In this document: piece by piece, positions 790-62,533 of the stretch
Position numbering within the stretch: the stretch's first letter is position 1
Layout of the letters: every line of letters begins with the position of its first letter
Origin: Phorcus lineatus
Taxonomy: Eukaryota; Mollusca; Gastropoda; Trochida; Trochidae
Reading direction: 5' to 3'
Assembly (NCBI GenBank): GCA_921293015.1
Contig: OV121085.1
Coordinates: 13,603,731 to 13,667,730 of the forward strand
DNA length: 64,000 bases
Notes under the pieces: model-generated
Seen by the model: the letters and a program-made list of their open reading frames with translations, nothing else
Database searches by the model: none
What the model was told of the DNA's origin: nothing
Program-made: the position numbers and the translations under genes

Positions 790-850
790 ATGCCTTTAAG
801 TTTACAGTTTGTGCTTGCCCTGATAGTTTATTTATGTCCTTGTGTTGCAG
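790..850 (+). CDS. First exon 1: signal peptide (receptor A)
   Basis: ATG at 790, 61 nt, donor GTAAGT at 851. It encodes MPLSLQFVLALIVYLCPCVA plus one nucleotide, so phase 1 matches the lectin exon at 9189. A hydrophobic core followed by small residues is a classic signal peptide. Chosen over the 4648 copy because only this one joins in frame. Confidence 0.8.
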
Positions 851-3800
851 GTAAGTTTTCTTTTTCTTCCCTAAGGGGATACTCTGAATATAGATTTATT
901 TCACGATACAGAATGTTGTTTATAGAATGTAGTGTAGAACTTAATAGTATACATTCATAAAATTGGTATGAGCAGTAGATATAGAATTTACCCACTCATG
1001 CGTGAACAGTTTAGATAATTACTATTTTTACCATATTAAACATTGTATCAAAAGGTGATTTGGCTTTTCAAGTGCGTATATTTTATGATGATCAGAATTT
1101 ACTTATAATAATTGTTGTTATCAAAATGTTATTCATACACTCTAGAAGTCATGTACATACAAGTTGAACAATTCTACAGCGATCTCGCCTTCACAACAGA
1201 TACTTCTTAAGAAATACCGTAGTGACATCTCTAAAGTCTATAAAATCAGAAGGCAATCAGGTTAAAGTAAAAAAAGACATCGTTTAAAGCCCATTCATTT
1301 CTTCCCTCTACGAAAAAAGCGCTTTAGAATACATCTAGTCACAGCATATTTCTTTTCAAAACTGATTGTAATGTTAAACGTGTAATGCAGTGTTAGATAT
1401 CGTACACCGTTATTACATTATGGGTATTAACATAATCTGTCACGTGGATGTGAAAATAAACCAAATATAACAGAGCTGGCGTGGCTGATGCAACTCCATG
1501 ACAGTAAGTTGCTTATGGACGTCTCATGGACATCCATATAAGCATCGTTTGTTTCAGATGTTTTCCGGCGAGCTTCGTGTAAGACTATGGTGACATATCA
1601 CAATGAGCTATGTACGTTGCCAATTGTTGAAGGAGTAAAAAGATAATGACCAAGGATAAGATTTTTTTTCATAAAGTATAGAATTATGCCCTGTTAAATA
1701 AGAACCAACGTAGGACTAAGACAGATTGATTGCAAGCTATTGTTTTTAAAGGGCATAAGACATCATTGGATACAAGTAGTGGTTAGATGTTTTGACGCCG
1801 TAGAAAATTACATTTAAATTTGCTGAAATTGAGCACATTGGTGCAATATATAGAATAGATATAGAACAAATCGTAACATAGAGGTGTATCGATAGTCATG
1901 ATCTGTTCTGAATAACCTTTTAATCATTCAAAAGTAACATTCTATACCTAATATCGATGATAAGTTATTACAATGATAACGTTTTTCTTTGTAAAATCTA
2001 CAAACTCTTGTTACATACTATATGAATGAAATTCAATCTTTCTTACCAAAGAAAGCAAATATGTCTTGGTTAACGTTGTTCGCGATACTGGTTTCGACCA
2101 AATATGTTCTTTGTTATATGTGACATTCTAATTGCTATAACGTTTGAAAGTAACTTTTAACCTATTTTCTCTAACTTGGTCAATAAATAGACTGAAGCAG
2201 TATCAACCTCTGCTACAAACACTCAAGTAAAGAATTTTTAAAAGTCTGCAACACAAGAGGCACTAATAGCATATTAGCCATGTCTTTAATTCTAAAGGAT
2301 GAAGGCCAAACAAAATAGCATAAAAATCACGGAGCGTCTCTTGAAAATTGCAGCAAGGATTCAGATTTTACCGAAAACTGCTCACCGTATCAAAATGTTC
2401 ATCATATTAAAGTACGGTTTATAGATGATATTGTTCTCTTAGCTACCTAAATTCCTTAACAGCATAACATAAAATATAATTTGTGGCAGATCAAATAATT
2501 TTCAAAGTTGGAATGGCTGGAGTCCGGTTAACTGTTGAGTGTCTTTCATTTGGCATGCAATTTAGAAAAAGTAATTTCACTGATGAGCCACTGCTGCCGC
2601 CAGTAATAACCTGTTAAAATAATGATGAAGGAAATATGCATGAGGGATTCCCATGTTGTACCCTTATTCGTGATAGCCCGTAAGGATTTCATCACAATTT
2701 CTTCGATTAATGTTCAAGTAAATCTGAACAAAAGCACTGAACGACAAAATAATGCCATCAGATAAAGCATTTAATATGAAAGATAGTTTAATCCACGATG
2801 GATAAATACAACTTATAAATAGCTACATTGTGTCTATCGTTATTTATAAATCTTGAAACATAATGTAGTTAGGTTTCTAAAGAACACGCTTTAAGAAAAA
2901 ATGTGGTTTTGGGATTTCCTTGATAGGCGAGAGAGGAGAGTGAAATATGAATTTTGGTTTGTTTTAAGATGTCCAATATCTATGAGCCGTCAATAGGCAT
3001 CAACAAGGTCAAAGAAGTTGCAATGTGTCAACAGCATCTTTTCTTTATGTTAAAGTCATATGTGATAAATGTTTGACTTAATTATCCAGCGAATTTATCA
3101 ACCCTTTTGTGTTTAATTAGGTTTGAAAATTTTATGGTCCATACTGTTAGAGTAACTTTGTGTATTCCTATTTACAAATCATAGACATTTACAATCAACT
3201 TTATCTGGCAGCGGTATTTGTTTTTTGACTCTGAAGAAAATTAAGTGACGTTCCTTTTGCCGTTGAGTATAGTACTTCTTAGACCAATGGGTTAACGTGT
3301 ACAACTGGGTTAAGTGTCAACATACACGTATAAATATCCAACACTTCGTTAGGCTTTGACTAATGTTTAAAATAATGTCTGAAATATATACAGTTTGTAA
3401 AATGAAACACGTTTCTTAATTCATTATTTTGTGATGTTGTTGTGCATCAGTAAAATCTAGACTTGCTGAAAGGGCGGCTAGCTGTATTAAAGGCTCCAAT
3501 TTAATAACAGTGTTTAAGCATTCGTATTTTAACTTAAGTTTAACTCATTGTATTGAATGCTTAACGAATTATTATAAACGATAGTGTTCTATATCAGGGT
3601 TAAACTTATACAAAGTGACAACCTTGAACAATTAAAAGTCCACTTAAAGTATCTATCAGCATTTATTTCAACTCATTTGTGAGATCTAATATAAATTCAA
3701 TTTATTTTTTCGGGACATTTATGAACACTTGTTATTTGTCATGTCCCATGTTTAACTGTCTGTATTTGATATTGCAAGTCTTTTATAAGGCTAGTCAAGA

Positions 3801-6800
3801 GTAAAATTTGATTATTAATATGAATAGATTCAAAAGTACTTTTGAAAATACTTTTGTATCGACTGAACAATGTCATGTATTTTCGACCACCAGGAGTCTC
3901 TATAAGTTTTGTGTCGCCATAGCATTGTTATACGAGGGACAATAAAATGTAAACAGGCCGCCGAAGTCGGATAGTGTTTATTTGACTGATACAACCTATT
4001 ACGTCAGAACTATTAAACCGATTCAGTGCTTAAAAATATGTCTCCTTTTTGCATCATGTCATTAAACTAAAATTAAAGATTATAAAAGCAATTATGTTAC
4101 AATTTTGATTGCTCAATGGATAAATAGAATAACCTGCTGATATAAATAGGGTGTCTCTTTTGAGGATAGCATGACTATCTCGTGCAGTGAGGAATAAAAG
4201 TCTGTTCTTGACAAGAGGCACAGTTTTAAACTGTTCTAGATCATGAAATGCAATTATCATTGTATTTGGCATAACTGGGAAAACAGACATTCTATTACTT
4301 GTGACACTAATTTAAAACTTACCTCCTTTTACGGGCGACTTAAAAAGTCTAGTGACGTCATAGCATTTTATTGATTACGAAACGCGAGTGGCAATAAAGT
4401 CTATAAACGGTAAAGCACTATCGCCAATGTGGTCACGTGACCGTATAGAGGGTTTCTTTCAATTCAAATAAAAGAGTATCTCACTCTAAGTCATGTAATA
4501 AAACGTTATGTGATATATCAACTGGTTACACCAGGGAGTATAGTCGTCTCACTTGTACCTTGCCCGCATTGTGTCACTGTGAAAGGAGATGGTTGGATAA
4601 ACAGCGTCGGCCGAGGAAGACATTACTCTCGCAAGGAGATACTGACGATGACTTTAAGTTTACAGTTTGTGATTGCCCTGATTGTTTCTTTTTTTGCCTT
4701 GTTTTGCAGGTAAGTTTTATCTTTTCTACCCTAAAGGGTTACTCGGTGTATAGATTTATATCACGACATCGAGCAGTATAATAAAGTATAGTGATTTAAG
4801 CAGATCATGTAGATTTGACTCATACGTGGGCATAACATACTCATAACGTTACCTCGTACAAATTGTATAAAATATATTTTGCTTTACTTTGAATGTTGGT
4901 ACATTTCAAAGTGATCAGAATTTAAAAACTTGTTGCTGCTGTCAAAATATCAAGTATACAGTAAATCGATTGATTCAGATGTTTTCCAGCGAATTTCGTG
5001 TAAAAATATGACGACAAATCATTTGAGTTATTTGCGTTGCCAATTCATTAAAAAGAGTAACCATAATGATGAAGGATAACAATTAATGAGTGAAGTATAA
5101 AAAATACCCCGTTAATACATGTAGGGCTAACCAAGGACTAGAAGCAAAATTACATGTCAAAATTAACCATTGGTGCTTTAAGTAGTTCGCTAGCTCTAGA
5201 TGGTATTACGTAGCAAGTTACACTAAGTTTCGAAGATATTGAGTACGTAAAAATTTAAATGAATCTGAAAATAGTTTTATCATCTACATTCATTTTTTTC
5301 CTGAATAACCTTGTGTCGTTAAAAAGCACTAACATAGACCTCAAGTTTAGAACAAAGGGAGTGGTAGCTGCCAGGTATCCAGCAAAATTAGTCAAGAAAA
5401 ACGTAAAACGTTTACAATAGGATTATCAAAGCATTTTCTAACAGTTAAAAACATGCTAACCTACTTACTTTATTCTATCATTTTATTTTGCTAAATAACT
5501 CGTTAACGAGAAACACTAGTAACGTGTTTTGAAACACACAGGCTGTGGCATGAAGAAATCTATACACAGAAAAATAGTTATCAGAAGGAGGTATTTCTAT
5601 CAAAATTCAAGCAAGCCATTTGACTTCATCACCTTAGTCAGGTGCTAACTGCTTTGCAACATCAAGAACTCATCAGATGATCAATCGCTTTACAAAACTA
5701 AAACTGAATATATCTAAAAACATTACACTTTTGAAAAACAGAAACGTAAAAGTGATGTCCCCCTCAACGGAATGTTATAACTAATGATATACCTCTGCCC
5801 AAGGCACTTATATTGCTAACGCCCTCTGCCCTGGGCAGTTATCTTAATAACGCCCTATCGGATTTTATATCCCTCTTCAAGTAACTGTGATTATTGGTTT
5901 TCATTTTAAGTCAAAGTATTTACTAACTTTAGGGAGTTCGCGTCAAATTCCTAAAACCAAAACCCTTGAGTTAATAATTTTGAAATTGGTGGTGGATACA
6001 AAAACTTATCATTATGAAGGCTGTCCATACCTTAATGAGTGTGTAATCATTAAATGAACGTTTTAATCCATCATTTCGTTTCGCTCTCACGAACAACTTA
6101 AAATGTGTTTCGTTAAAATGGCTGAATAATCCGCCGTGTTGGTTCCGGAAGTCTATTATATAGATTGTGCTATATAAAATGTTACGTGCTTACGAAGCGA
6201 AATATTCCTTTTCAGTTATATTGCATTTTATGGTGCTCTATTAATTGGTGTCAAGCTTTCACCCACTGTTAACTTTCATGATGTTTTGTTTCGTACCTTG
6301 ACTAAAAAAAACAGAAAAAAATTCGGGGTTATATGTTTTTATTTCCATAAAATATCACAAAATGGATTATATATATAATGTACTTTATATCACATAATAT
6401 GTTGTAATATTTATCACATTGTGGTTTCATATCAAATATATCAGTATAAATGCATTTTACAGATTCAATCACAAAAATTACATTTTTTCACAGAGCAGAT
6501 ATTGCACATTATATTTTTATAATATCAAAATTGACGCATTTTGATTATTTACAAACTCATTTATAGACATTAATATTTACACTTGTGTAAAAATCATAGA
6601 ATAAAGAGCTCACAAGGGTAGAAGCATATGTCTGAAGTCTTCATAAGTGCATAGCTACAGACATGTTGAATTAAAATGAACGTTAATCAAGTTACGATTA
6701 TCTATCATCTAGATTGTTATGTGAATTACTGATAATGTTCAGGTATATATTTAGGGTAACTTGATAATTCTTATTCAATTATAGCATCCGGACACAGGGT

Positions 6801-9800
6801 GAATATTAACTAGTTATTGACTAAAATATCTTATGATGAAAATTATTATTCACTGTCATTTATCCTTCGTCTTAATTTGATCTTAAAACAAGAATGGTAT
6901 TACTATGAAATATAACTAAATATAGATATAAATTATCGAACCATCATTGGGAACATATTGCTATGCTTAAAATTTATGTACGAGAAAGTGAAGTTCCTAT
7001 GAGAGATGGAGTTCAGTTACTTAAAGTCATAGTCTCATTTTTGCAAGGCAAATTGTAATAATTGCCGGACAAATAGTTCACTTCTCACAGAAATCTTTCC
7101 CCTGACGTTTGCATCAACTTTCAGAACTCTGCAGGCATTCTAGCCCTCAATAATGAAGTTCAAACTACCCTACCCTACCCGAATATTATGTATTTTTGCG
7201 ACCGTTAGTCCTTACCACGTCATTTTGCTAAGGCCCTGACGAAGAACACATAAAATTTCCCAGCTGAATATCCAATGAAAATAGCTAATAGGTTACGCTT
7301 TTTCAAATACAGAAATAACAAAAAGGTGGTAAACTCAGTGAAGAATGCATCTGTCATAAGTATCGGCGCTGCGATGACTAGATTTCCGGTGTTTCGTACT
7401 CGCGATAGGATTGCACTTGATTCGGTACCTCATCGGTCAGAAACGGCATACGCCAATAAGCTGCTTCATCCAAAATTGTAAAACGGGCATAAAAATTAAA
7501 ATCTTTGCAAATGCGAATGAAAATATTTGTGTTAGTGATCAGATTTTGTTCGTGAAGAATAATTAGTTCAGTTTAGTTGCCTTACAAAAATGAGACTATG
7601 ACTTTAATCATAATGTATTGAACGTTAGGGAATAAGTATGCATTAAAAGCTAGATGACTGTTTGTACATATGTACCCAGTTTAAAATCCCATATGCCTCG
7701 TTAATACGCATTCGTTCTGTGAAGCGTTTCAATTAGGAATACTTAAAACGTGAAAAAAAGAAAATAGTTATTAAATTACAGAATTGTCGTAGTGAAATGA
7801 ATGAAAGGCTATCGCAAATAGAAAAGCGTAAGCATGTCTACTCAAATCGTTCAAATATTAAACTGCAAATTATAAGAAGCATATGTGTCATTTTCAATAA
7901 TGTCTCACATGATAATATTGTTCCGTGTGAATTCAAGAAACGTTGGTGTAAGATGGAAACATGAGGTAGGGGGAAACATTGTACAATCGTTCATACATCT
8001 GAAAAGAGCATGCGTCAGAAAATGTAATGTTAATGACAAAATAGAACAACAAAACAACGATGTATTACAATGAACTTTACAGTGGCAACATATAAAGTCT
8101 ACACACATAAGATAACAAATGTGGTTGGCGAATGACATTTTCCGGATTGTAAAACGTAAAATATGTTTATACTGTCCTCAATCATCTTATTTAGAAGCAG
8201 CAAAATACGTAAAATATTGACATATATGTATGTACAGGGTTAAAATAATGCTTGTGGACGGTACAAAGATATATCATCAAAATATGTCACTGGAAAGGTT
8301 GACCAATGAAATCGTTAGAATTTATTATTTCCAAAAATATCTGATGAAGAGAAATTCGACTTACTCATATTACTGGCTTGATGCGTTCATCTTCCCGAAA
8401 AATATCCGAATAGGGGAAATGATTTTTTCAAGCGAGATTTAATAGTCGGATGCATGTCAATTTCTCGCGACTTGCACGTAAAATTACGACAATTGTCGTA
8501 AGTTCGATGTGACGTCACAACCGCGACCGAATCATTTTGTACAGGATCGAAGAGAGAGGTAGGTTGCTCGAGGCGAACTCCCTACTAACTGCCACTTTTG
8601 AAAAAATTACTCAAATGTTTAATCTGAAATGCCCTCGAACCAGTATACACATGTACTTTATAGACAAACATGCCAAACTCAACGATGATACCAGTATACA
8701 GCAACGGCTTATAGGATGACCCGGGTTAGACAGAAAATTAATTAAAAGAATTAATGTTTTTACCTGACACTTCTATGATAACTATTGGGAGCGGGTGGTT
8801 AATGAGTGAGCTTTGCTAACTAATTCTGTTGTTTGCTATTTAACAAAACATGAGAAGCTATCGATTATCAAATAGTTCAGCATTCTGAAGTATGTGTCGA
8901 CATCCTCACATTTGTCAAAGTGTGAATTTGTTGTCCATATATCTAACGATCAGTTTGTAGCAATTATTTAACCAATGATTTTACAATATTTGTCTGAGTT
9001 ACCCAGTTTTATAATATCATTATAATTTAGGACAGGACCATCTGCGTATCAACAGTGATTATCAACACAACGCCATTACCGTTGTCACATTTACCATAAC
9101 ATAAGGGACATGAAATATGTATGGTACATGGATCACTTGTAATTTCCTCATATTACAAGCATAACAAGATATTTTTTTATTTCAACAGAGTTAGAAAGCA
9201 AGGCTTGTTATGGGACACCTGGTCTACCATGTACAAACCACACCCTGAGATGCAGCAGTGGACATATAGCCATACAGGAAGCCTTCTACACGGACAGTAA
9301 AGCTTGTGGTAATGGGGTCTCTAACTGCGCTAATATCAGCCTCAGCATTATCCCACTCAATGGAACAAGATATAACTTCAATGTTACAGAGCTGGCGTCA
9401 CTGAATTCAGATTGTTTTTTACATGTAACTTGCAGTTACCAAGCACGACAGAGAAACAAAGTTATCCGGAGTTTTTCTGCGATTTTATATCAGTGCATAA
9501 ATGGTAGGTTAACTCGATTTTCATGGTAATATTTAAAGCTAGCATCTTAAATCAATGATCAAAAGAACATAACCACAATTAGAAAACATTTACGCAGGAT
9601 GATGTCGATAGGATACGATTAAAATTAACTTTATTTTAATAAATAAAAAAGAAAAAAAAGAAAGCAAGTATTATTTTGTAATAGAAAGAGTCACCTGAAA
9701 TAGAAGAGTATGGAAAAGTAACGGTAAAGTCTTTTTCTCTATGTTCTTCTTTAATAAATTAAATTTTTACCAATTACAATGTCACAAGGTCAATAATTAT

Positions 9801-12800
9801 TATGTCATTTGAATACGAATTGTATCCATACAGAGGCTATTTCAGTTATTTCGTCCCTAGTGAAATATTATTTGCGCAAGCACTTATAGAAAAACACCTT
9901 GAAGGGTCCGGTGATGGGGCAACCTGTCCTCTTTGAGACGTAGCTCAAGTTATCTCCTGCTTACCTTTGTTTTGATTCGAGCACTCTCTTGCCTACAACT
10001 TGAGGCTGTCATATTGGAGTCTCCCTTTCTCTAGGTTTTTATAGGAGCTTACAGAGATCGTCCTTTCTGTCTTTGGAAAGCATGTGTTGGTGCCTTTTCC
10101 TCCGATGTAAAAAATAGAAATGTGCCTTTTGCCTTTTGGATACGGTGCCTTTCACTAGAAGAAAGAACGCACGTTACTCCTGGATACATGTCGTGCACAT
10201 ATAATTTATCAGGTGAATTATGATGAAATATAGAATAATGTCTTTAATAGTTGAAATTTGAATTAAAAATCAAACTTAAAAATGACTTCATTTTCCGCAT
10301 TTGGTTTACACGGGGATATGATTCACTTACCATCGTAGACATAGGTTATCATAAACTACATAATCGAATCCCTCCGATCGCACCTCTCGTGATAATGAAA
10401 CAATACTTACAAACAATTTGATACCGTCAGTTTTAAATGCACCGTTGCACGTTTTTTATAGTTAAGAGGTCCCAGGAGAAGGATGAAAATGGTAACAATT
10501 ACAAAATAACAATAGTTTGTTAACATTTATAAGAGTTCTAAAACCAACGAACAATTTTCGAGTAAATTACAAATATCCATTTCTTTAACTCAAATTACAT
10601 GCTAAAATACATGGCAGTTTTTTTTTAAATTACGGATAATCGGATAATCGATTAAAGTAATTAGATGGTACAACAACCAGTCTGTAGAAACTTCTATTAA
10701 AAGAAGCAAATTATAACTATTTTAACATCCACGAGGCGTGTTACAATGCCTTTTATATGATGTCAATGTTCATCCAATTCAGATACATCTGAAGCAAATT
10801 ACACGTACACCAAAACAAGTATTTCAACGCATGCAACCACGGCACAGAATACTGAGAAACTTCCGTCTACTGATACTGCAAGTAAGTGTACCATAACATA
10901 CATATCAAATTTAGTTTACATGCAAGTTGTTTGAGAAAATGAATTAAATGATTCAATAATCAAAACATCGATTGCCCATCTTTGTAATTCAACGCTCATA
11001 TCAGTACTTGACGTTTCATTTCTAATTTTTCCGCATGTATTTGATAAAGGAAAACACAATTGCAATGTTTTTTTCTCTTTAGTTTGATATATGTACATAT
11101 AGATATATTTTGATAAATTTTAACAGTATGTGATATGTCAAAGCATTTCAAACAAGTCAGTCCTTAACACAAGATCTATATTTGTTTTCGCATTTAAATT
11201 GAAAAGTTATCTATTTATTATATAAGCTTGCATAACATGATAAAGACTTGGCTTTCCAAATTTGTGCTGACGATTTATTAATGTTTATAAAACTCGTGCT
11301 TAAAAAATAGATATGAGGACATTGAAGAAGCTAAGTGGATAAAAATACACTGATGTAACAGGGTGACTGTTTAGTTTCTTAATAATAAAATAAATAAATA
11401 GATGACAAACTCTGATCTTTGTTCAGCTGGTGCCATTGCTGGGGGAGTGATTGGTGTTCTCGTTGTCTGCGCTGTTGTGGCTGCTGTTCTTATATGGTTC
11501 AAGTTCCTGAGGTGAGGAAACTGTAAAGCAATGTCTTTGATAAACATAAAACATAAAGTATCAAAAGTTGAATTTTTTCGGAGATGTCAAACAGGTGAAA
11601 ACCTTGCTTCTGGAGTCCAAGAACGCATTAAGGGACGTATGTACTGAAAAGCAGTCTAGTCTTTGATATGTAGATGGAATATGTAAAACAGCACGGGAGG
11701 GAGATTTCAAAGACTGGTTTAAGAAGAAGAGGTATGATACAAATCTTGCTAATTATACTCTAACTTCATGGTATGAATATTTTAAAAATCTTTTAAATCC
11801 ATTGGTTTCTGCAAATCATCATCCATTTGATGAAACAGTGGAAAGTGTTTTGTCAAACCATGAATACAATGAGTGTGAAGAATGTCTTAATGTTGATATC
11901 CTATCAAAACCAATATTGAAAGATAAGATTGAAAGAGCGTTTAACCTTTTAAAAACAATACAATCCCATCTGAAGTTTATAAAAAAACTTCCTTTCTGAT
12001 TTCTTTTCTAGAACTTCTATACGTTGTGTATTAGATTCAGGAATCTTGCCAGAGATTTGGAATATAAGGATCAAAATCATTCTACATAAAAGAGGTAATG
12101 TTCAGAGTCCGATTGAGTCGCTCGAGTCCTTTTCAATGCTATAATATTTGATACATATTGATATCTAATAGCGTCGATAGTTTTATATGGTTCCAGACAT
12201 TTGGGCTATTTTGTGCGAGATAAGATAAAAAAGTGCAACGTTCTTTTTTTAAAGAAATATTTTGGTGTCAGTAAATTTGTGTCTCAACTCAACTATACTT
12301 TATGAGGCTGGAAGTTATGACTATGACTATGTATCAAATATTTCCAAAGATGTGTAAAATATTGGACCGGGCTACTCAACATGGAAACAAATCGCCATCC
12401 AAAGGCTTATATGATATGACGACGATTTTAGTATTAGTTGGGTGTCACATGTTCGTACTTTGTTAAATGAGAATGGTTTTTCATATGTACTGTGGTATAC
12501 CGTCTTTTATGCAATGTTTAAAACAACGGTGTAAAGATATTCAGTATCAAATAAAACATAGTAAATTTTGTTCGTCCTTGTATTTGCATTAATTCAAACT
12601 ATCAACTTAATGTACAGCAATATCGATATGATACAAATGGAAATACTGATCTATAGATGTGTAGAAAATGTAATTATAACGTTCACATTTTGTGAATCTA
12701 ACCATAGTATAATTTAAATGGAAAAATTGTGTTACAATGGTATTTTTGTCATACCTGTCCGATACGGGAAATATGCTAAAATCTTTAAAGAATGTTGAAT

Positions 12801-15248
12801 GCTTAAAAGATCTTACAATTTACCTGAATTGTAATATACCTATACAATCATCGACAATCAGGCGAAGTGATCTTATATAAATAGTCTTAAAAGTGCCATG
12901 CTTCGATGATTGTGTAAGATAAGAGTATAATCACATGAAACTTAATTATGGAAGATTGAAAAGAATTCTATGAATTAGACTGCAAATGACTACTCTCTGA
13001 CCCCATGATATATCAAAATTTTGGTCTCACTAAAGGGGTTCAAAATGGTTTAAAAAAAACCCAACAATTTATGTATGGTCATAACTGTAATTAAAAACAA
13101 TAACTAGGATTGGTTTTAAGGATAATTCGGGGAATTGAAGTTTGAAGTCTTCGCCTCATACCCCTCACCAGACGTCAAAATCGTCTTGTTGCAATCGCTG
13201 CCACCCCTTACTTCCTTTTCATGCAAGTTCTGAAGAGGAGGATCCCTGCGTAGCACCAGTAGTCCCAAATGTCCCAAAGATGTTCAAGCGGAATAAGATC
13301 CGGACTCATTGCAGGCCAGGGGAGGTGTGTCAGGGCATAGTACTGGATTACCTCGCAGGTCGTGAACGCTGGTCTTGCATTATCGTCAATGAATATTGTT
13401 CTTGAAAGTGGATGGTTGACGAAATAGGGCACAAAAACAGGTTCAAGGACTTCCCGGATGTAGCGATCTCCTTATAAGTTACCTCTTATGGTCACAAGAT
13501 CATGTTTGCAGTCAAAAAAAAAGCACCTCCATACCATCACAGATCCCCCACCATATAAGGCAATGTTGGTTTCATGGTCTATACGATAAGATCGATATTC
13601 CTGGGCGCCTGCAAACTCTGATCCTGTCATCCACAGAGTGCAGCAAGAACCTGCTTTCGTGTGACCAATGAACCTTCTTCCATGATCTTAAATTCCACTC
13701 AATTTTTTCTGTACACCATGCGGGACGCAAATGCTTGTGGTTGTACTTGAGTTTGATTGCATTTCTGGACTTCAATCCTGTGCCCTTTTTCGTCGATTTC
13801 TAAAATTTTGGTGACTGAACAGACAGGTGTGGAAGCGAGTGCCATTCTCGCATCATTCGTTCTTGCATGTTTTCTGGCTAAACGATTTATGGTAGATTTA
13901 TTACGTCCAGTTCTTCTTGCAATTTCCTTGAAAGAAAGACCGGCTCCGAGAAGACCATTTATCAGGCATGTGACAGCCTCTGACATTCTAGCACCTGGCA
14001 TTCTTAGTTACAATAGTGTAAACGGAAATTGATAACAACCCCATATTGCAAATTTCGGAAATCGTGGAGAACAAAGTGCACGTGAAGCTTGTTGCGTTAG
14101 GATGAAGAATATCACTACAAAAACATGATAAAATCAAACCTACTAAATAGCAGGTTCGTGGATACAAACAACAGCAAGGAGGATTAGGTATGTGCCGAAA
14201 TAACATAACGTCCAATTGAGGCGTGCAACACTTTTCAACATGTATATGCACACGGGTTTGTATTTTAGGTCACTCCTTCATTCACTCAGGTGCAATAAAT
14301 AAACATTCGGCCCTCTAGATTCTTCTATATCTTTATATAGAACAAATTAAAAACACATATAAAAAGTATGTTTTTGGAGACATATATAATGATACTGACG
14401 TCAATATATATTAAAATAAAAAAATTCAATATTTGGAAATAAAGAGGCAACTGTGGGTTATTTATAATTTTCCGTGATGCAGACATTTTAAGGACGATTA
14501 CCTCCTAGACAACTCAATCAAGATCAAACTCGGAATTATATAATAAATCAGACACATAGACATATTCTTTTGAAAGTACAATTACTTTTCATTGGCCAAT
14601 CTGATTTCATACACTTTATGATGTATAAATTAAAAGTATATAAACAACATATGAATTTTCAGGAACAGGAAGGAAGACAAGAAACCAGAAAGAGGAAGAA
14701 CTAACCACACTTATGCTGCTTCAATGTCAACAACTACTACCGAGCACAAAAGCAGCAGAAAGACGACAAGCAACTATGACTACGCAACAATACACAAGGG
14801 AGACAATCCTGTAGGACGCGTCCAAAATCACTACGTTCTTGCTGGTAAACCCAGCACCGAGAATGAAACAACTGTCCTTATGGAAGACGACTACAACCAC
14901 ATCAATCACAACCCTCCACAGGGTGCCTCGTCCCCTGGGTACGACACCACTGCTTCTGCCGTCGCGGCAGTGAAGAAGTTGAAGAATGCATCATCCAATA
15001 GCATCGAGGACGATGACTACAACCATCTCGGAGATGGGAAACCAAGTGTTGTCTCCAGTGACTATGACACAACATTGTCTGCTTCCAAGGCTGTGGCACA
15101 TCTCGGGGAGATGAAGAACAGTGAAGATGACTATGATCACTTTAAAAGATCTGAAGACAGAGTAATTGATTCGCCCTATAATATAGCAAATCACCAAAGT
15201 AGTGTTTCTGCTGATACGACACACAGCCCTTATGACCTTGCAAAATAG
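790..15248 (+). CDS. Receptor A: lectin-like single-pass receptor with Tyr-motif tail (5 exons, spliced gene)
   Basis: Gene model joined from exons 790-850, 9189-9503, 10783-10881, 11427-11511 and 14663-15248. Phases agree at every junction (1,1,1,2), giving 382 codons including the stop. Residues 1-20 are a signal peptide; 21-125 an eight-Cys domain with four N-glycosylation sequons (NHT, NIS, NGT, NVT); 126-158 a Thr-rich stalk; about 160-183 a membrane helix (GAIAGGVIGVLVVCAVV); 187-381 a basic juxtamembrane stretch and a tail with 11 tyrosines. The ectodomain resembles a divergent SUEL/rhamnose-binding lectin domain (LRCSSGHIAIQEAFY, ending in ILYQC) but lacks the usual YGR and DPC motifs. 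I infer a cell-surface recognition receptor that signals through phosphotyrosines. It is the most diverged of three paralogues. The 8.3-kb first intron contains a dead duplicate first exon at 4648. Further small stalk exons could have been missed. Confidence 0.78.
851..4524 (+). other. Intron 1 of receptor A, 5' part
   Basis: Non-coding. The first ~100 bp after the donor is conserved with the intron starts of the other five first exons. A segment near 1553-1660 (CAGATGTTTTCCGGCGAGC onward) recurs after the second first exon near 4976-5085, showing that exon plus intron start were duplicated together. I see no other gene; short open frames here lack codon structure or paralogues. Confidence 0.6.
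4525..4647 (+). promoter_or_regulatory. Conserved 5' block of first exon 2
   Basis: Second copy of the block found before 790, with ACCAGGGAGTATAGTCGTCTC, CATTGTGTCACTGTGAAAGG and GGAGATACTGACG, preceded by AATAAAACGTTATGTGAT at about 4498. It is close to copy 1, indicating a local duplication of about 3.9 kb. Confidence 0.55.
4648..4709 (+). pseudogene. Relic first exon 2 (frameshifted signal peptide exon)
   Basis: ATG at 4648, donor GTAAGT at 4710. The sequence reads MTLSLQFVIALIV then a T-rich run. The exon is 62 nt instead of 61, because one extra base lies in the T run at about 4685-4695. It therefore ends in phase 2 and cannot join the phase-1 lectin exon in frame. Reading back in the needed frame meets a TGA at 4679-4681 with no ATG after it. 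It is most likely the front of a dead duplicate. Confidence 0.75.
4710..7020. other. Intron 1 of receptor A, middle part
   Basis: No exon seen. Between about 5785 and 5865 there is a degenerate repeat with CTCTGCCCAAGGCA, GCCCTCTGCCCTGGGCAG and ACGCCCTAT units. The same repeat family occurs in the other orientation at 51085-51175. The rest is AT-rich unique-looking sequence. Confidence 0.45.
7021..7606. mobile_element. Non-autonomous DNA element with ~30-bp inverted repeats
   Basis: The left end reads TTAAAGTCATAGTCTCATTT and continues to 7051. The right end at 7577-7606 is its near-perfect reverse complement (AATGAGACTATGACTTTAA). The ~525-bp interior has no transposase. Superfamily is unknown because the target duplication is not clear. 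Confidence 0.55.
8484..8517. promoter_or_regulatory. 18-bp perfect palindrome next to a CRE-type TGACGTCA site
   Basis: TTACGACAATTGTCGTAA at 8484-8501 is a perfect palindrome. TGACGTCA, the canonical CREB/ATF half-site pair, lies at 8510-8517. They sit in intron 1 of receptor A about 0.7 kb before the lectin exon. Function is unproven; chance or a transposon end is possible. Confidence 0.3.
9189..9503 (+). CDS. Lectin-like eight-Cys domain exon (receptor A)
   Basis: Acceptor ...TTTCAACAG, donor GTAGGT; 315 nt, phase 1-1. It opens ELESKACYGTPGLPC and ends AILYQCIN. The eight cysteines match those in the paralogous exons at 30365 and 58956. A symmetric single-exon domain is typical of a shufflable extracellular module. 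Size, cysteine number and the LRCSSGHIAIQEAFY core suggest a divergent SUEL-type (rhamnose-binding lectin) fold. Without a profile search this assignment is tentative; exon identity is firm. Confidence 0.8.
9504..10782. other. Intron 2 of receptor A
   Basis: An A-rich low-complexity stretch lies at about 9640-9665. No coding sequence is visible. An extra stalk exon cannot be excluded, but I found no Thr-rich phase-1 segment flanked by good splice sites. Confidence 0.45.
10783..10881 (+). CDS. Thr-rich stalk exon (receptor A)
   Basis: Acceptor CATCCAATTCAG, donor GTAAGT at 10882; 99 nt, phase 1-1. It encodes 33 residues rich in Thr, Ser and Ala (TSISTHATTAQNTEK), as in an O-glycosylated spacer between ligand-binding domain and membrane. 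Confidence 0.7.
11427..11511 (+). CDS. Transmembrane exon (receptor A)
   Basis: Acceptor TTTGTTCAG, donor GTGAGG at 11512; 85 nt entering in phase 1 and leaving in phase 2. It encodes TGAIAGGVIGVLVVCAVV then AAVLIWFKFLR. This is one hydrophobic helix with a GxxxG-like start and a basic cytosolic edge, fixing type I topology. Confidence 0.82.
11640..12840 (+). mobile_element. Degenerate LINE (reverse-transcriptase fragment) in intron 4 of receptor A
   Basis: Broken frames give LINE-like text: WYEYFKNLLNP near 11780, then ILDSGILPEIWNIRIK near 12030-12080, a typical reverse-transcriptase palm-entry stretch. SWVSHVRTLLNENGFSYV follows near 12435, and the VKDIQYQIKHSKF-type segment that follows the RT domain in non-LTR elements comes next. 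Stops and frameshifts are frequent, so it is dead. Orientation is the same as the host gene. The clade (CR1/L2-like or RTE) is not resolved. Confidence 0.7.
13142..14001 (-). pseudogene. Tc1/mariner transposase remnant in intron 4 of receptor A
   Basis: On the minus strand the frame from 14001 begins MPGARMSEAVTCL and contains a helix-turn-helix (LSFKEIARRTGRNKSTINRL). Shifted frames then give HWSHESRFLLHSVDDRIRV (around the first catalytic Asp) and IDDNARPAFTT (second Asp). WPAMSPDLIPLEHLWD follows (third acidic residue present). Domain order is that of a DD34E transposase, broken by at least two frameshifts. Terminal repeats were not identified. Confidence 0.75.
14002..14662. other. 3' part of intron 4 of receptor A
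   Basis: Non-coding, AT-rich. It probably includes the outer end of the neighbouring Tc1 remnant. It ends in acceptor ATGAATTTTCAG at 14662. Confidence 0.4.
14663..15248 (+). CDS. Cytoplasmic tail exon (receptor A)
   Basis: Last exon, 586 nt, starting in phase 2 (RNRKEDKKPERGRTN) and ending SPYDLAK-stop at 15246-15248. The tail holds 11 tyrosines. Motifs in order: NYDYATI, HYVLAG, EDDYNHI, GYDTTASA, EDDDYNHL, DYDTTLSA, EDDYDHF, SPYNIA, SPYDLAK. The pair (acidic-DYNH[I/L] then YDTT[A/L]SA) is repeated. Acidic-xYxxL/I resembles the hemITAM of vertebrate lectin receptors; that is analogy only. There is an internal ATG at 14724, but splicing evidence puts the exon start at 14663. Confidence 0.85.
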
Positions 15249-19217: not shown

Positions 19218-19278
19218 ATGGGTCTGAGTATGAAGCTTGTGTTTATCCTTATTATTCCATTATGTCCTTGTCTTGCAG
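19218..19278 (+). CDS. Orphan first exon 3 (signal peptide)
   Basis: ATG at 19218, 61 nt, donor GTAAGT at 19279. It encodes MGLSMKLVFILIIPLCPCLA plus one base, so phase and reading are intact. No lectin exon follows before the next first exon at 29103. It could splice to the lectin exon at 30365 as a distal alternative first exon of receptor B. Alternatively it is the surviving front of a truncated copy. Confidence 0.6.
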
Positions 19279-23404: not shown

Positions 23405-23980
23405 CAGGTAGTAAATAATGACCCGGTGCCGAGCGGTTATGGCAAATAAACTCGCTAGGGCGAGTTTATTGTTAATAACGCGAGGCAATCGGGTCATTGT
23501 TTGGCTTACACACCCGCGGAACATTGGTAAAACAATTTTAAACTAAATTATTTAAATATATTGCATTTATAAACGTTATATTTTTACACTTTGCGGCTTG
23601 ATGTTTTTTTGACCGAACAAGTCCTATAGAATACTTACAATACACGCCTGCTTAAGATTTTAAAGGTAAACACTAGATCCTTGACATCAGAAATATACAA
23701 AACCTATATGTATATATAAACTCTTCAAAAAAAGAAACTTGACATTCATGCGAAATTGATTTTTTCGAAACGGGTCAATTGTTTTCAGGATACATACCTG
23801 TAATTTAAAGAAAGGCTTGCTCAAAAGTATAAATTTACCAAAAACAATGGCCCAAAATGTTTACGTTGTGTTCAGGGACGAAAACGAGCGATTCGTCCAA
23901 ATGCATTTTCTGCCAAAGCACGTGCAGCTTTGGATCATGAAGGTTTACATGCAGAGACGTCTGCTTTAGGGGTATAAATA

Positions 23981-24616
23981 TATAGAACGTCATTCTAGTG
24001 CATTTTTTCGTTTGTATTGAACGAGTAGATGTCACAAAGAGCAAAGAAACAACGAGTTCGCAGAACGAGTTGTTTCTTTGCTCTTTGTGACATCTACGAG
24101 TTCAATGCTAACGACAAAATGCACTAGAATGACGTTCTATATTTATTACATACCCTTTTTTCGTTTAATTTACTTCAAATAAAGCCGAAGAGTGTTTACG
24201 CGTTGTCTTGACCTAAAGAAATTACTCCGCCAACCCTTTCACGTAATATTACGTCATCACATTCCTCCACCTATGACGTCACATTGCAATAGAGTGCACA
24301 CGAAACTGTGATAATTATTTGAAAAAAACAGACGCAAGATATTTGATCACATGATTAAAATTTCTTTAATGACGCGTGCATATCACTTACATGTATATCA
24401 ACATTTCATTCGAATACAATTTAAACATTCATAACTTGAATCATTCGTTGACGTTCGACAAATTCTAAATATAGCTGACATGACAGCTCTCTCGCTGAGA
24501 AAGTAGTTCCGTGAGAAGTGCAATACGGAGTGCAATACGGATTGAGGAGTGCAATACGGAATTCATTGTATTTCATTACGTATTACTATCGTAAGATTAC
24601 ATGGGTATGTAATAAA
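23981..24616. mobile_element. Foldback palindrome plus TTACATACCC MITE, copy 1
   Basis: Two linked parts. A long palindrome (arms about 23983-24059 and 24063-24140, short loop) starts TAGAACGTCATTCTAG. It adjoins a 471-bp MITE with 12-bp ends TATTACATACCC (24144-24155) and GGGTATGTAATA (24603-24614). The same pair occurs reversed at 34516-35043, so the two parts probably move or were copied together. No coding capacity. Confidence 0.7.
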
Positions 24617-24673
24617 AAGCCGTATCAGCCGCTGTTCATTCAGACCACACAACATCGGTACAGCGACCTGAAG

Positions 24674-48691: not shown

Positions 48692-49238
48692 AAAAGAAAC
48701 TGAAATTTGTTCGTTTGTGAGATAACTACAGACTATGACAGAACAATTCTTGTGATGTCAGTCAAGTAGTATTTGTGACTTATTATGGGTTGGTTATGTG
48801 TACTTTTACTTATGAATTGATATCAAACAGTTAAACATGTTTTTGAATAAATAACTATATCCTTCCAATATGATTGTCTGTGTTTCCATGTTTATTCAAA
48901 CACAATGTATACTTGATTATGATCATTAGCTACCATGTAAGAGAACATGACTTCTGAGAATGCGAACCAGTTACTTTTTATTACGTGTGCAACTTGAATT
49001 TGTATATATGAATTTATTCAACACTTAAAGGACACAGGCCTAATGTATACGTATGGTACAAAAGTAACAATCATTTATTAGGTCAACAACACCTTCAAAG
49101 GGATAACATTCATATACATGATCATACCAAACATATCATAGGGTCACCTATTTACATATGTACTATATATATGTTATCACAATTCATCGTAAATTTGTAT
49201 CAAATTTCGTCATATAGGGGGACCAATAATCGATCAAT
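48692..49238. other. 3' flank of receptor B, distal part (displaced by insertion)
   Basis: Resumes the match to the C flank: CTATGACAGAACAATTCTTG here against CTATGACAGCACAAGCCTTT at about 63316, and TTATGGGTTGGTTATGTGTA against TTATGGGTTGGTTGTGAGTA. No coding sequence. Confidence 0.6.
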
Positions 49239-53992: not shown

Positions 53993-54053
53993 ATGCATTC
54001 AACTGTAATTTTTGTGTTTGCTCTGATCATTTCATTATGTCCTTGTTTTGCAG
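53993..54053 (+). CDS. Orphan first exon 5 (signal peptide)
   Basis: ATG at 53993, 61 nt, donor GTTAGT at 54054 (weaker than the GTAAGT of the others). Encodes MHSTVIFVFALIISLCPCFA in the correct phase. It lies 0.87 kb before first exon 6, so it is either an alternative first exon for receptor C or a leftover of a truncated unit. Confidence 0.6.
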
Positions 54054-54920: not shown

Positions 54921-54981
54921 ATGGATTTTATGTTAGATGTTATGTTGGTCCTGATTATTCCATTTTGTCCTTGTTTTGGAG
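54921..54981 (+). CDS. First exon 6: signal peptide (receptor C)
   Basis: ATG at 54921 within GACGATGG, 61 nt, donor GTAAGT at 54982. Encodes MDFMLDVMLVLIIPFCPCFG plus one base, phase 1. Chosen as C's first exon because it is the closest intact copy. Confidence 0.72.
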
Positions 54982-57900: not shown

Positions 57901-60900
57901 TCAATTATCGATCGACTTTGCCAGTTTCTCAATGTCAAGATGTAAACTCCCTTACATGGTCTGGAAATTCAACTGCTGTGAGTCAGAAGGAATGTCTGTG
58001 AAAACACCATCGGTAGTTATTTGCATAAAGCAAGAAGATGAGAGAAAAATATTAGCATTAGTAATTTATGCCCTCTTGTCGTTATCGCGATGAAATTGTA
58101 TTTGATAAGACAGACTTCTGGAGCAAATATATAAATCTTCATCTTGCAAAATTGAGCACGTTGAAACAGATTTAAAAATAATTCACAACTTTTTTTCTAC
58201 CTGCATGGTCTTTCAGGAACAATCCATTATTGTAAAGTGCATTTTTTCTGTAACGTTGACAACATATTATATAATGTCATATCAATCTCAATCTTCATTT
58301 TGTCAAATTGCAACTGCTATAACCATCCATTTCCGATACGTGCCATTTTGGTAAAAAGACAGATCAGAGTGATTACAGTTAAGAGGCGTAGTCAATATTG
58401 ATATATGAATTTAAACTTGGAAATTAAAGTGATATGTTCCAACAAGGTTGCGTGATCGGTTAACATTTTAATAACCCCTTAACTTCAGTTTACAAAATAT
58501 AACCAAGGTTATTTGGCGTTTAAATAAAATGCTACCTCCTGATTGTCGAAACAGGATCGCGTGCAGTGATGAAACCACCATAATAAGCTGTTTTTACAAA
58601 TGTTGTTTTAAAATACTTTGATAAGCCTTGATACTCATACTTCAGTTAAAAGTTAGATTTAGACATCTTATCAAAAAGATTAATCACATACTTGCCATTA
58701 ATTCCTTTTTGTGATTAATATTAATTGTTAAAATTGTACCCTTTCGACTCTTTAAATGCCAGTGGAGAAACACATTACGACATGTTATTTCAGTGATGCA
58801 GTGATCCTTTCAGACGTCAGTTAGTGCATAGCTCATATATTTATTTAGGTTTTCTTTCTCCTACAACAGTTATATCCTGCAAAGAAATAGTCCTGTCCAA
58901 GTATACAATAACCACACCTACACAGTCATTAAATGATACTTTACTTTTTCCGCAGTTGAAGTAAGCAAGGCATGTTATGGCTCAGAAAGACTATGTACAA
59001 AGCACAACCTCAGGTGCAGCAGTGGGCGTATAGCCATACAGAAAGCCTTCTACACGAACAGTACAGATTGTGGTATTGGAGTCTCAGCTTGTGTTCTTGT
59101 CAATACCAGCAGTATTTCACTCACTGGTAAACCATCTAACTTCAATGATACAGAACTGGGTTTACTATACAGAAACTGCTCTACACAATATGCATGCAGT
59201 TTTCCAGCACCAAGGCGTCATCGTGGTTCCCTATATTTTTCTGTTTTCAAATACAAATGTGTTAATGGTAAGTTAACATAATTCTATTAGAATCACGTAA
59301 CGAACTGTATTATTTCACATTTCATAACAATGTGATTGCTTTTAAAGTAATAATACCGAATAAGTCCGACAAAAACTGAAGCTGGTAAGAAACTTATTTA
59401 ATTCATACTTCAACATATATGCACCTCATTATGATCAACGTACAGCCCTCTACTTACCTAAGCAATTGCATTATCATAGATAGCTCATGTGAGCGTACAG
59501 TCTGAAAAAGACATAGCATGGCCGAATCAGAGGCCTTATTGGGGGTTTAATACGACCCATACAAGAGACAACGTAAATTATATTAATAATGAATACACTC
59601 GTCGGGTTGACAAAAACTGGTCAACTCAGTATCTATTGTACATTTTCAACAGTCCCCATGCTCTTTAATGCTATGTTGGGATAATCTGTTGCCACTCATC
59701 ATGCATTGGTCAATTACTGATGGTTGGAAACAGAAGAGTTCCTTGCTTTCACCCTACGACCCTATATGTCCAACAAATCAAAAAGAAACGTCACAAACGA
59801 CCTATGGCCAACATCAGAAAATCCCGTTTAAGTAAGAGTAAAGAGCTTGAAAATAGCTGGCAATATTTTTGAAGAAATGTGTATTGTAAAAAATTCTCTG
59901 ACATTTATTTGAACGTATCACCAATTGATGAACGAATGAAATTAGATAATCGTTTTTGCAAACTGTCTCCACAAAAAATCCCAAGTTGTTGTCATTACAA
60001 AAGATGTTAAATGAATATATTTATCATACGTTTTTAATCAGAATTATGAATAACAAACGCCTATTTGAAAGCACGCAATTAATCGAAAAACGTAGAAAAA
60101 ACATGTTATACAGTTATAAATTGTCAGGCCCTTTCTCTTCATGTATGACTAACTAAAAAAAAAACGTCTCAAATTTCGTCAAAATGACAGTTAATAGCAA
60201 TTCAGAAGCTTGAAAAATATCACGAAAATACGTTTATCATTTACATAAAACGTGGTTAATACCCCTTTCGTACAAGTATTATAGTCATCAACAACGACAC
60301 CAATATGTATAACAAAAGAACAAGGCTTTCATGTATCAGTAAAATGCTTCTATTTATCTTTTTGTTTCAAACAGAAATTTACCGTAAAACTACACCAGTG
60401 CCAAATCAAGAAAATGATACAAAAGCACAAAAAAGTAAGTTTGCATGACAAAACTTCATAATGCTTTTGGACCAAGGCCCACTCTTCTTTGCAACTAAGA
60501 ATTGGACAATGTGTACAATGTCACTTTAAATGTTGAAACCTTTCTTAACCTTATCTTTGAGACACAGTAATAAGTAAATGATATTGGATTTGATGACGTC
60601 ATAAACGTAATTTCTCTAGTCTCTAATAAATAAAGAGTGTTATGTAAGGAACGTAGGTACTTAAATTAATGTTCGAAAATCGAAATACTGTCATACAATA
60701 ACAGAGTTTCTGACAAAATACACTAGAGATACGATGTCAAATGTATTTAAGATATTGCTCAAAATGATACATTTCTGAAACTAAAATTGATCGAGAATGA
60801 ATTCTTAACATACCATGTGGGTATTTCAGAAATTGTTGGATATTGAGTTTCAATGTATAGACAGACTTTGGGAGTATGTAAGAGAAGGTTAAAGATGATA

Positions 60901-62533
60901 ATGTGGAAATTTTATGATTATAACACTAATCAAGATTTCATTGTATTATCTATTGGCTTTTAGGACTTTGTTTTGATCTGATGAGTAAAAGCTTGACATT
61001 ATACAGGTGCAGATTCAAATATTGGAACAATTATAGGAATAATCATCCCACTATGCATCATCATTGCTGGAGTCGCAACTGTTGTTATCATTTTTCGAAG
61101 GCGGTAAGATTGAAAATCATTAAAAATATATTGTTAAAGAAAAGTATTGGTTTCGGGACAGCATATGTTATAAATATAGCAAATATTCCAGCCAATGTTG
61201 AATATTTTGAACCTATTATCATACTCTCTATATACTCTCTATGCAAAGACAACAGTTAAAGTATCATATATTAATGAAACGATGTAATAAAATGGCTACT
61301 TGGTGTAAGGAAATCATAAGTTTTTTTTAAACATAAAATAAAACCATTCTGAATTTCAGAAAATTGCAACGGAACGGTGGAAATGGGAAAGTTACAGAGC
61401 CAACATCAACCCCTCTACAAATATACCCATCGGGAAAAACGTCTTCACCTGACTTTGGCTATGCCAGAGCCAATGATTATCTGGACTTGGCACTAGAGAC
61501 ACAAAAGTTGCGGTCCCCTCAAAATGCCGATGCTATTTCAGGGTTGCCTGAATCACACAACTCAAGTGAAAGTAAGAATGATAAGTTGAATATTCAAATA
61601 ACAAAGGAACTAAGCTCATCTGAATATAACCTTGCTTCAAAAATGGAGAGTCATGATGTGAAAACGCTATCAGGAAAAAAAGGTTCGTCTGAATATGTCT
61701 TAGCTGGGAACATTTCAAGAGGAAAGGAATCCCAACAGGCTAAGAAGGGATCATCTGATTACGACTACACCGGAGATAACACCTATCATGTATTAGAACG
61801 GCAGTCGGCACTGAGAGATTCCTCTGATTACGACTATGCTGGAGGAAATGATTATCATGAAGTAGAACCCCAGGAATCAAATACCTCTGACTACGACTAT
61901 GCTACTTGTGGTAAGCAACAAGCAAACGATTCTTCAACAAGAAACACTCAGACAAGAGACAGTGACAATGATCATTTCGGTCGTGAACCAGCAAACGCAA
62001 ATGTTCATCATGAGACCACTCTATCCGTTGCTGGCACCTCGGAAGGAATAGATGCCAATGAAGAGGTCTATAGTTACAATCATCTCAATGAAAAAGCTGT
62101 CAGCAACGCCAATGCTGATTCGACTTACAACACCTCTTCCTCTACAAGACACAAAATTGATTCTTCATCCAATGACATAGAAGACGACTATGGCTACAAC
62201 CATCTGGGTACTGAGTGTAAGAAGAGCCTTCCTCAGAATGAATATGATACCACTGCATCTGCTATTCGAGATGTTGCAAGAATGAATGGAGATATGGAAG
62301 ACTCAACGTACGATCATGCACATCTTTTAACTTCGGATAGCTCGCCATCTGGAATGACCAATGCAGGTTTCCAGGAATCGGATTATGACCATGCTTCTCT
62401 GTCAACGACTGCCCACAAAGATGAATATGAATCCAACGCATCACGTAATCGAAGCCACCAGGATGAAGGAGGAGCGGATGTAAAGACGCTTGCTGGGGAG
62501 GCAGAACCTAATCCATATCAACTTGCGAAATAA
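54921..62533 (+). CDS. Receptor C: lectin-like single-pass receptor with long Tyr-motif tail (5 exons, intact)
   Basis: Model joined from 54921-54981, 58956-59267, 60375-60434, 61007-61103 and 61360-62533; 568 codons including the stop, all phases compatible. Residues 1-20 signal peptide; 21-124 eight-Cys lectin-like domain; 125-144 short stalk; about 152-174 membrane helix with RRR edge; 177-567 tail with 23 tyrosines ending NPYQLAK. It is the best-preserved member and the reference for judging B. It may have a second, upstream first exon at 53993. No exon matching B's 48-residue stalk exon was found between 59268 and 60375, so C would stand closer to the membrane. Surface recognition plus phosphotyrosine signalling is inferred from architecture. 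Confidence 0.8.
56505..56770. repeat. Strand-asymmetric TCGTGT / ACACGAT cryptic repeat
   Basis: A G/T-rich part (about 56510-56580, many GTGTTG, TCGTGT and GATCGTG words) is followed by an A/C-rich part (about 56590-56640, ACACGAT, AACACAACC). Partial self-complementarity could allow a hairpin. Origin unknown. Confidence 0.35.
56908..57195 (-). other. Unrecognised 95-codon open frame, possible exon or transposon fragment
   Basis: Open on the minus strand from about 57195 to a TGA at 56908. Text includes LCGDICVTPVCSVSIGQNIA and YFAVGGTYVKPEKSTYEKIG. GC content is higher than its surroundings and it looks protein-like, but no start codon lies near its head and I recognise no family. It could be an exapted fragment or chance. 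Confidence 0.25.
58956..59267 (+). CDS. Lectin-like eight-Cys domain exon (receptor C)
   Basis: 312 nt, phase 1-1, donor GTAAGT at 59268. Reads VEVSKACYGSERLC, LRCSSGRIAIQKAFY and FKYKCVN at the end. All eight cysteines of A and B are kept; one residue shorter. Central segment differs strongly from A and B, as would be expected if ligand specificity diverged. Confidence 0.82.
59268..60374. other. Intron 2 of receptor C
   Basis: AT-rich; no Thr/Pro-rich exon equivalent to 32390-32533 was found. Acceptor TTTGTTTCAAACAG at 60374 is nearly the same as that of B's stalk exon 2. Confidence 0.45.
60375..60434 (+). CDS. Stalk exon (receptor C)
   Basis: 60 nt, phase 1-1, donor GTAAGT at 60435. Encodes EIYRKTTPVPNQENDTKAQK. 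Same length, phase and splice context as B's stalk exon 2 but with fewer Thr residues. Confidence 0.68.
61007..61103 (+). CDS. Transmembrane exon (receptor C)
   Basis: Acceptor CATTATACAG, donor GTAAGA at 61104; 97 nt, phase 1 in, 2 out. Encodes SADSNIG, then the helix TIIGIIIPLCIIIAGVAT followed by VVIIF and RRR. Confidence 0.85.
61360..62533 (+). CDS. Cytoplasmic tail exon (receptor C)
   Basis: Acceptor GAATTTCAG; enters in phase 2 with RKLQRNGG; stop TAA at 62531-62533. Twenty-three tyrosines. Motifs in order: FGYARANDYLDL, SEYNLA, SEYVLA, then GSSDYDYTGDNTYHVLERQ, DSSDYDYAGGNDYHEVEPQ and SDYDYATCG (repeat units). VYSYNHL, STYNTSS, DDYGYNHL, EYDTTASA, STYDHA, SDYDHA and NPYQLAK follow. 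YxxL/V/A spacing recurs, as in receptors that dock SH2 proteins; which kinase or adaptor is unknown. Strongly similar to B's tail, but B has an extra YHxV/YHxL pair near the start. Confidence 0.87.

Follow-up and report, generated by a model that had tools for sequence, protein, structure and literature searches.

The 64,000-nt stretch of Phorcus lineatus contig OV121085.1 analysed here (positions 13,603,731 to 13,667,730; hereafter the window, on which all positions are numbered) contains three intron-bearing genes, all on the + strand, which an earlier note made from the sequence alone had described as a clustered family of surface receptors. Modelling the splicing from the sequence (GT-AG joins), we recovered the three models at exactly the coordinates given in that note, spanning 790 to 62533. 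Every modelled intron is GT-AG, the three genes share the phase series 1, 1, 1, 2 (derived for gene 1 from exon lengths of 61, 315, 99 and 85), and the predicted proteins of 381, 572 and 567 aa (genes 1, 2 and 3) each carry a single, terminal stop, in agreement with the statement that all joins keep phase. Each gene encodes a signal peptide, a 104-105-aa domain with eight cysteines in a single exon (the head), a stalk, one membrane helix and a hydrophilic tail; hydrophobic 19-mers (mean of at least 1.6) occur at two places in each protein, the signal peptide and the one membrane helix. This shared architecture, with 11-28 tyrosines per tail, is as the earlier note had it. Together with the splice phases and the paralogy of the copies, it gives good support to a clustered family of predicted type I surface receptors with multi-tyrosine tails. 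The GC content of the window is 32-40% per 4 kb. The modelled features are as follows.

790 to 850, + strand: gene 1 exon 1, signal peptide, ending in phase 1, donor GTAAGT
9189 to 9503, + strand: gene 1 exon 2, 8-Cys SUEL-like domain, phase 1-1
10783 to 10881, + strand: gene 1 exon 3, Thr/Ser-rich stalk, phase 1-1
11427 to 11511, + strand: gene 1 exon 4, transmembrane helix, phase 1-2
14663 to 15248, + strand: gene 1 exon 5, cytoplasmic tail with 11 Tyr, ending in PYDLAK-stop
19218 to 19278, + strand: gene 2 exon 1, intact signal peptide
30365 to 30679, + strand: gene 2 exon 2, 8-Cys SUEL-like domain
32390 to 32533, + strand: additional, optional stalk exon of gene 2, open over 144 bp in phase 1-1, with an acceptor unlisted by the pyrimidine-filtered exon scan
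34355 to 34414, + strand: gene 2 stalk exon, Thr-rich
35394 to 35490, + strand: gene 2 transmembrane exon
36010 to 37195, + strand: gene 2 cytoplasmic tail with 28 Tyr, stop earlier than in gene 3
53993 to 54053, + strand: gene 3 signal-peptide exon, first copy
54921 to 54981, + strand: gene 3 alternative signal-peptide exon, second intact copy
58956 to 59267, + strand: gene 3 8-Cys SUEL-like domain
60375 to 60434, + strand: gene 3 stalk exon, not Thr-rich (15% Thr+Ser)
61007 to 61103, + strand: gene 3 transmembrane exon
61360 to 62533, + strand: gene 3 cytoplasmic tail with 23 Tyr, ending in PYQLAK-stop
4648 to 4709, + strand: extra signal-peptide exon copy, out of frame for the phase 1 donor; its region and that of the gene 1 leader share 81% identity
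29166 to 29226, + strand: signal-peptide exon copy preceding the gene 2 body, with TTG where the start ATG would be

The tails are hydrophilic (mean hydropathy -1.1 to -1.3) and rich in tyrosine, with 11 of 194 residues in gene 1, 28 of 394 in gene 2 and 23 of 390 in gene 3. Relative to an assumed background of 3%, a general figure for tyrosine, the excess has P values of 0.03, 3e-5 and 0.002, respectively. When we counted repeated tyrosine-containing trimers, none of 1000 shuffles reached the real value for any of the three tails, which bears out the earlier description of repeated tyrosine motifs. The gene 1 tail is homologous to the other two though diverged (E 8e-10 to the gene 3 tail and 3e-10 to the gene 2 tail), and the blocks YNH[LI], YDTTASA, YDYA and YDH are common to all three, with YHx[LV] present in genes 2 and 3. 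We chose the names YNHL, YDTT, YDYA and YDH by reading the tails, and the shuffle counts for these motifs are post hoc. An acidic residue lies at -1 or -2 of the tyrosine in 5/11, 18/28 and 15/23 cases (genes 1, 2 and 3; counts without a significance test). As general background on kinase and SH2 preferences has it, acidic residues upstream of tyrosine are common in tyrosine-kinase substrates. A relaxed form of the hemITAM, half of an immunoreceptor tyrosine-based activation motif (ITAM), occurs once, as EDDDYNHL in the gene 1 tail, and genes 2 and 3 have DDYGYNHL.

With regard to the head, all three copies have eight cysteines at near-identical spacing, and the paralogous domain exons match one another at tblastn E-values of 8e-29 to 2e-34. 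A profile made from eight SUEL domains with solved structures was aligned by hhalign with the three head copies at P 1e-4 and a probability of 57.6%, a score that none of 200 column shuffles reached (100 of them with the Cys columns kept). A SUEL hidden Markov model (HMM) ranked the three head exons 1, 2 and 3 among the 579 open reading frames (ORFs) of at least 40 aa in the window, ranks that are not independent given that the exons are paralogs, and the real scores were reached by 1, 0 and 0 of 1000 Cys-fixed shuffles. The C-x5-C and LxC..G.I.I..A.Y elements of the heads coincide with SUEL positions. In the latrophilin RBL domain, as described, the sugar is contacted by the Glu after Cys1, the Tyr of YGR and the Gly and Lys of loop 2, while the Arg of YGR stabilises a loop and loop 2 carries PDPCPG (PMC2430599). 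All three heads read CYG and AFYT or AFYM at the sugar-site positions, so that Cys1 is followed by Tyr rather than Glu and only the Tyr of YGR is left, and they have neither DPC nor KYL. Because these known sugar-binding residues are missing, binding of rhamnose or galactose by the heads is unlikely, which fits the published argument that RBL domains of membrane receptors have noncarbohydrate ligands (PMC2430599). The cysteines have changed as well: the heads have an extra Cys between SUEL Cys1 and Cys2 and lack SUEL Cys7, that of DPC. Of the disulfides reported for the SUEL/RBL sandwich fold (Cys1-3, 2-8, 4-7 and 5-6; PMC2430599), 4-7 can therefore not form as such. The head is thus probably a remote homologue of SUEL and not a member of the family. 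What stands of the term "SUEL-like" in the earlier note is a remote, sub-threshold profile similarity; the sugar-binding residues of latrophilin RBL do not go with it.

The coding sequences show signs of having been kept. Gaps in the gene 2/3 tail alignment are multiples of three in 5/5 cases, as against 2/9 in the 3' noncoding flank, and the same is true of 4/4, 3/3 and 1/1 gaps in the domain across the three gene pairs. Ratios of nonsynonymous to synonymous change (dN/dS; Nei-Gojobori, with bootstrap 95% ranges) were 0.54 (0.32-0.86), 0.41 (0.25-0.70) and 0.52 (0.32-0.88) for the domain in the three pairs, and the tail of genes 2 and 3 gave 0.51 (0.37-0.72).

The heads and tails appear to differ in history. 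Between genes 2 and 3, synonymous differences (rounded) are denser in the head, the domain having 30/72 and the tail 53/255 (P 6e-4). The same test on genes 1 and 2 gave the opposite picture, with 34/71 in the domain against 92/121 in the tail (P 1e-4), although the gene 1 tail alignment is gapped and the tail divergence of this pair perhaps overstated. At blastn E 1e-4, gene 1 matches the other two at the leader and head exon regions, and has no match to genes 2 and 3 over 9514 to 16472, an interval that includes the gene 1 stalk, membrane and tail exons. The DNA of genes 2 and 3 is 84% identical in the membrane exon and 67% where the tail begins; for the remaining tail and the 3' flank the figure is 83-93%. 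Since a single duplication history would give like values for head and tail, these figures suggest exon exchange or gene conversion between the copies. The family had been called diversifying, and the differing synonymous distances of head and tail agree with this, but there is no sign of positive selection in head or tail, where dN/dS is below 1.

The interpretation that we favour, with a probability of roughly 0.55, is that the three tandem genes encode fast-evolving type I recognition receptors that would signal through phosphotyrosine. Surface location, loss of sugar binding, phosphotyrosine signalling and a role in recognition are all properties that we infer from the sequence. The head would be a very diverged SUEL/RBL-type domain that has lost its sugar site and binds a protein or another ligand. 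Clustering driven by this ligand would allow Src- or Syk-type kinases to phosphorylate the acid-flanked tail tyrosines, and the phosphorylated YNHL, YDTT, YDYA, YDH and YHx[LV] blocks would together recruit several SH2 proteins. Heads and tails could be exchanged between copies, the head being a single phase 1-1 exon and the tail an exon of its own, and this would place different recognition modules on different signalling tails. On blood or epithelial cells, such receptors would most likely serve to recognise microbes, cells or self/non-self. A bolder version, speculative and in our judgement unlikely to hold in full, is a recognition system of neither immunoglobulin (Ig) nor C-type lectin kind, built by exon shuffling, in which sugar-blind SUEL-derived heads are swapped onto multi-tyrosine tails whose tyrosine code (YNHL, YDTT, YDYA, YDH, YHx[LV]) is distinct from ITAM and from the corresponding inhibitory motif (ITIM), and which would serve as an immune or self/non-self repertoire.

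Several results weigh against recognition receptors with a SUEL-derived head. A Pfam search of the 105-aa domain had been suggested in the earlier note, and SUEL (Gal_Lectin, PF02140) was matched by none of the three copies, the gathering score not being reached; a typed SUEL consensus, run as a control, scored 103.6 bits against a cut-off of 31.4. The head had no above-chance match in Pfam, NCBIfam or the PDB sequences, and a search of the PDB with the head profile returned no SUEL chain among its matches. A match of this profile to the major prion protein (E 0.62) was put down to chance, as were Pfam matches to DUF3079, Menin, ribosomal L13, TMEM154 and others, all far below cut-off. Pattern searches for head relatives in virus and prokaryote contig collections gave 82 and 20 matches, with none confirmed in either. 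The E-values of the SUEL HMM are weak (0.023, 0.1 and 0.22, with a fourth, unrelated ORF at 0.5), and the signal lies mainly in the first third of the domain, the unrealigned hhalign path being 24 columns long and the HMM match of gene 1 extending over 27 positions. A head unrelated to SUEL, that is, an independent cysteine-rich domain that had converged over a similar stretch, would account for this restriction to the first third, for cysteines that do not correspond one to one, and for the failure of all three copies to match SUEL even when Pfam was scanned at E 10, although the filters of that scan remove most matches above 0.1. We consider such convergence rather unlikely in view of the HMM ranks of 1-3 among 579 ORFs, the shuffle tests and the hhalign P of 1e-4, and retain remote SUEL ancestry as part of the recognition-receptor reading.

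As for the tails, our motif search found ITIM, ITAM, strict hemITAM, the related switch motif (ITSM), YxN, YDxP, NPxY, YxxM and YxxQ in none of the three. This rules out an ITAM/ITIM reading, and recruitment of SH2 proteins would therefore be by analogy only. The tails had no above-chance match in Pfam, NCBIfam or PDB and none in phages, and the tyrosine columns are not kept significantly better than others between genes 2 and 3 (22/26 against 261/342, P 0.24). The tyrosines might instead serve mainly in endocytosis, the proteins being uptake or scavenger receptors for kinase-linked phagocytosis of particles rather than for a recognition decision. One small head on a stalk would suit this, and the endocytic pattern Yxx[ILV] occurs 3, 7 and 5 times per tail as against shuffle means of 1.3, 2.5 and 2.5, with as many in a share of 0.14, 0.014 and 0.094 of the shuffles. 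Yet the pattern fits only a minority of the tyrosines (3/11, 7/28 and 5/23) and NPxY is found in 0/3 tails, and we regard uptake as an unlikely main function next to signalling in recognition.

The constraint on the coding sequence is also open to objection. The gene 2/3 tail is 86% identical, compared with 86-87% in the 3' noncoding flank, and the skew of differences across codon positions is not significant (P 0.16 for the tail; 0.19, 0.33 and 0.96 for the domain), so that constraint must be weak. Synonymous sites of the gene 1 tail are saturated, perhaps to an inflated degree as the alignment is gapped. Leader and stalk carry no information, since their dN/dS values (0.71-1.1 with wide ranges for the leader; 1.21, range 0.43-4.08, for the 20 codons of the gene 2/3 stalk) come from stretches too short to tell, as does the 0.49 (0.18-1.41) of the gene 2/3 membrane exon. 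Overall, the three genes are kept open yet evolve fast.

The leaders and stalks vary more than the rest of the architecture. Six copies of the signal-peptide exon lie in the window, two per gene, with intact copies at 790, 19218, 53993 and 54921; the second copy is broken for two of the three genes. We placed the start of gene 2 at 19218, a distance of 11 kb before the body of the gene, because the body-adjacent copy at 29166 has TTG in place of ATG and is thereby ruled out as the start. Gene 3, with intact leaders at 53993 and 54921, has two possible first exons. The pairs reflect either repeated duplication of a promoter plus leader exon, or alternative first exons. The stalk had been described as Thr-rich, which holds for genes 1 and 2 (42% and 40% Thr+Ser) and fails for gene 3 (15%). 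The open exon at 32390 to 32533 may belong to gene 2 as an extra stalk exon. At about 34007-34060 the gene 2 stalk exon is repeated in an apparently decayed form that has kept the TTTCAAACA tract; the exon scan does not list this second copy as open in phase 1-1. The gene 2 tail ends before the PY-x-LAK terminus common to genes 1 and 3, in a frame that is otherwise open. If the cluster were decaying, with gene 2 at least a pseudogene or truncated, one would understand the ATG-less leader at 29166 and the out-of-frame one at 4648, the tail stop that comes earlier than in gene 3, the decayed-looking stalk-exon copy and the 11-kb first intron of gene 2 with its transposon-like element. We find decay quite improbable, however, as the tails of genes 2 and 3 run for 394 and 390 codons without a stop, dN/dS is below 1 in head and tail, gaps come in threes and the leader at 19218 is intact.

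Several elements lie in the surrounding DNA. The long first intron of gene 2 contains a Tc1/mariner-like element (23713-25819) in which a perfect 20-nt inverted repeat, with arms 2067 nt apart, flanks a transposase-like ORF (24843-25622; DDE_3 E 4.8e-5 and HTH_Tnp_Tc3_2 E 2.7e-4, both below the Pfam cut-offs). A foldback element resembling a miniature inverted-repeat transposable element is present in two copies, with one arm 94% alike between them: at 23980-24142 the arms are 80 nt and 91% complementary, and at 34881-35047 there are pairs of 57 and 29 nt, 96% and 86% complementary. In the last intron of gene 1, an ORF on the - strand (13699-14007) matches HTH_38 just below cut-off (E 4.2e-6) and is perhaps a transposase remnant. 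The ORF at 11667-11999, which by eye we take to resemble part of a retroelement of the long interspersed (LINE) type, had no Pfam match up to E 1. A 203-nt repeat, 91% identical, occurs at 48801-49003 and 63398-63600, 14.6 kb apart, the latter site lying downstream of gene 3. Scanning the window for Rfam families and tRNAs gave 0 matches.

Compared with SUEL/RBL domains (PF02140; CSL3, latrophilin RBL), the heads are alike in their length of about 90-105 aa, eight Cys, LxC..G.I.I..A.Y core and C-x5-C, and they occupy whole exons much as the 8-Cys latrophilin RBL construct is reported to agree with the exon boundaries of its gene (PMC2430599). They differ in having no Pfam match, in the absence of the Glu after Cys1, the Arg of YGR, the DPC loop and the Lys of KYL, and in one relocated Cys. 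The statement that SUEL-type lectins are usually secreted or part of adhesion G-protein-coupled receptors is incomplete, because EVA-1/C21orf63 was already known as a single-pass receptor with a SUEL/RBL-type ectodomain (PMC2430599, PMC4133157). By that likeness, our proteins could be guidance or adhesion co-receptors of the EVA-1 kind, whose head binds a secreted protein cue and which work beside another receptor. EVA-1 is described as single-pass, binding the protein MADD-4 through two lectin-like domains and needing its tail (PMC4133157), and sugar residues are reported to be often missing from receptor RBL domains (PMC2430599). We nevertheless think this improbable, as two SUEL-type domains and a short tail are described for EVA-1 (PMC2430599, PMC4133157), whereas each gene here has one domain exon and a multi-tyrosine tail of 194-394 aa, and the copies stand in tandem.

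For the recognition receptors that we favour, the Botryllus fester co-receptors (FcoRs) and Hydractinia Alr offer a parallel as invertebrate, locus-clustered allorecognition systems with tyrosine motifs in the tail; the FcoRs are also type I, with a long tail that likewise has core Yxx[ILV], but are described with an Ig/sushi ectodomain, and both systems have canonical ITIM/hemITAM, in contrast to the SUEL-like head and lack of canonical ITIM/ITAM here (PMC12065747). No Ig family was among the Pfam matches in our scans. The ectodomain of Alr is of Ig type, and clustered receptors of this allorecognition kind are marked by high polymorphism tied to fusion or rejection. CLEC-2 and Dectin-1, the hemITAM receptors, are brought to mind by EDDDYNHL of gene 1, which fits [DE]3xYxx[IL]; they have a C-type lectin head, type II topology and one motif only. 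SUEL domains are reported in large membrane-associated proteins of bdelloid rotifers, and the role of lophotrochozoan SUEL lectins is called elusive (PMC8878817). A literature search of titles and abstract openings, in which subscription journals were thinly covered, found no single-pass SUEL receptor with a multi-tyrosine tail among the matches listed. For work on multivalent tyrosine signalling, a naturally occurring tail that has over 20 tyrosines arranged in repeated blocks, yet no textbook motif, makes a good test object. If our reading is true, a sugar-binding fold has been recruited to a different ligand and exchanged in the form of one phase 1-1 exon, and the cluster adds to the phosphotyrosine-type receptors of invertebrates a class that joins a SUEL-derived head to a long multi-tyrosine tail.

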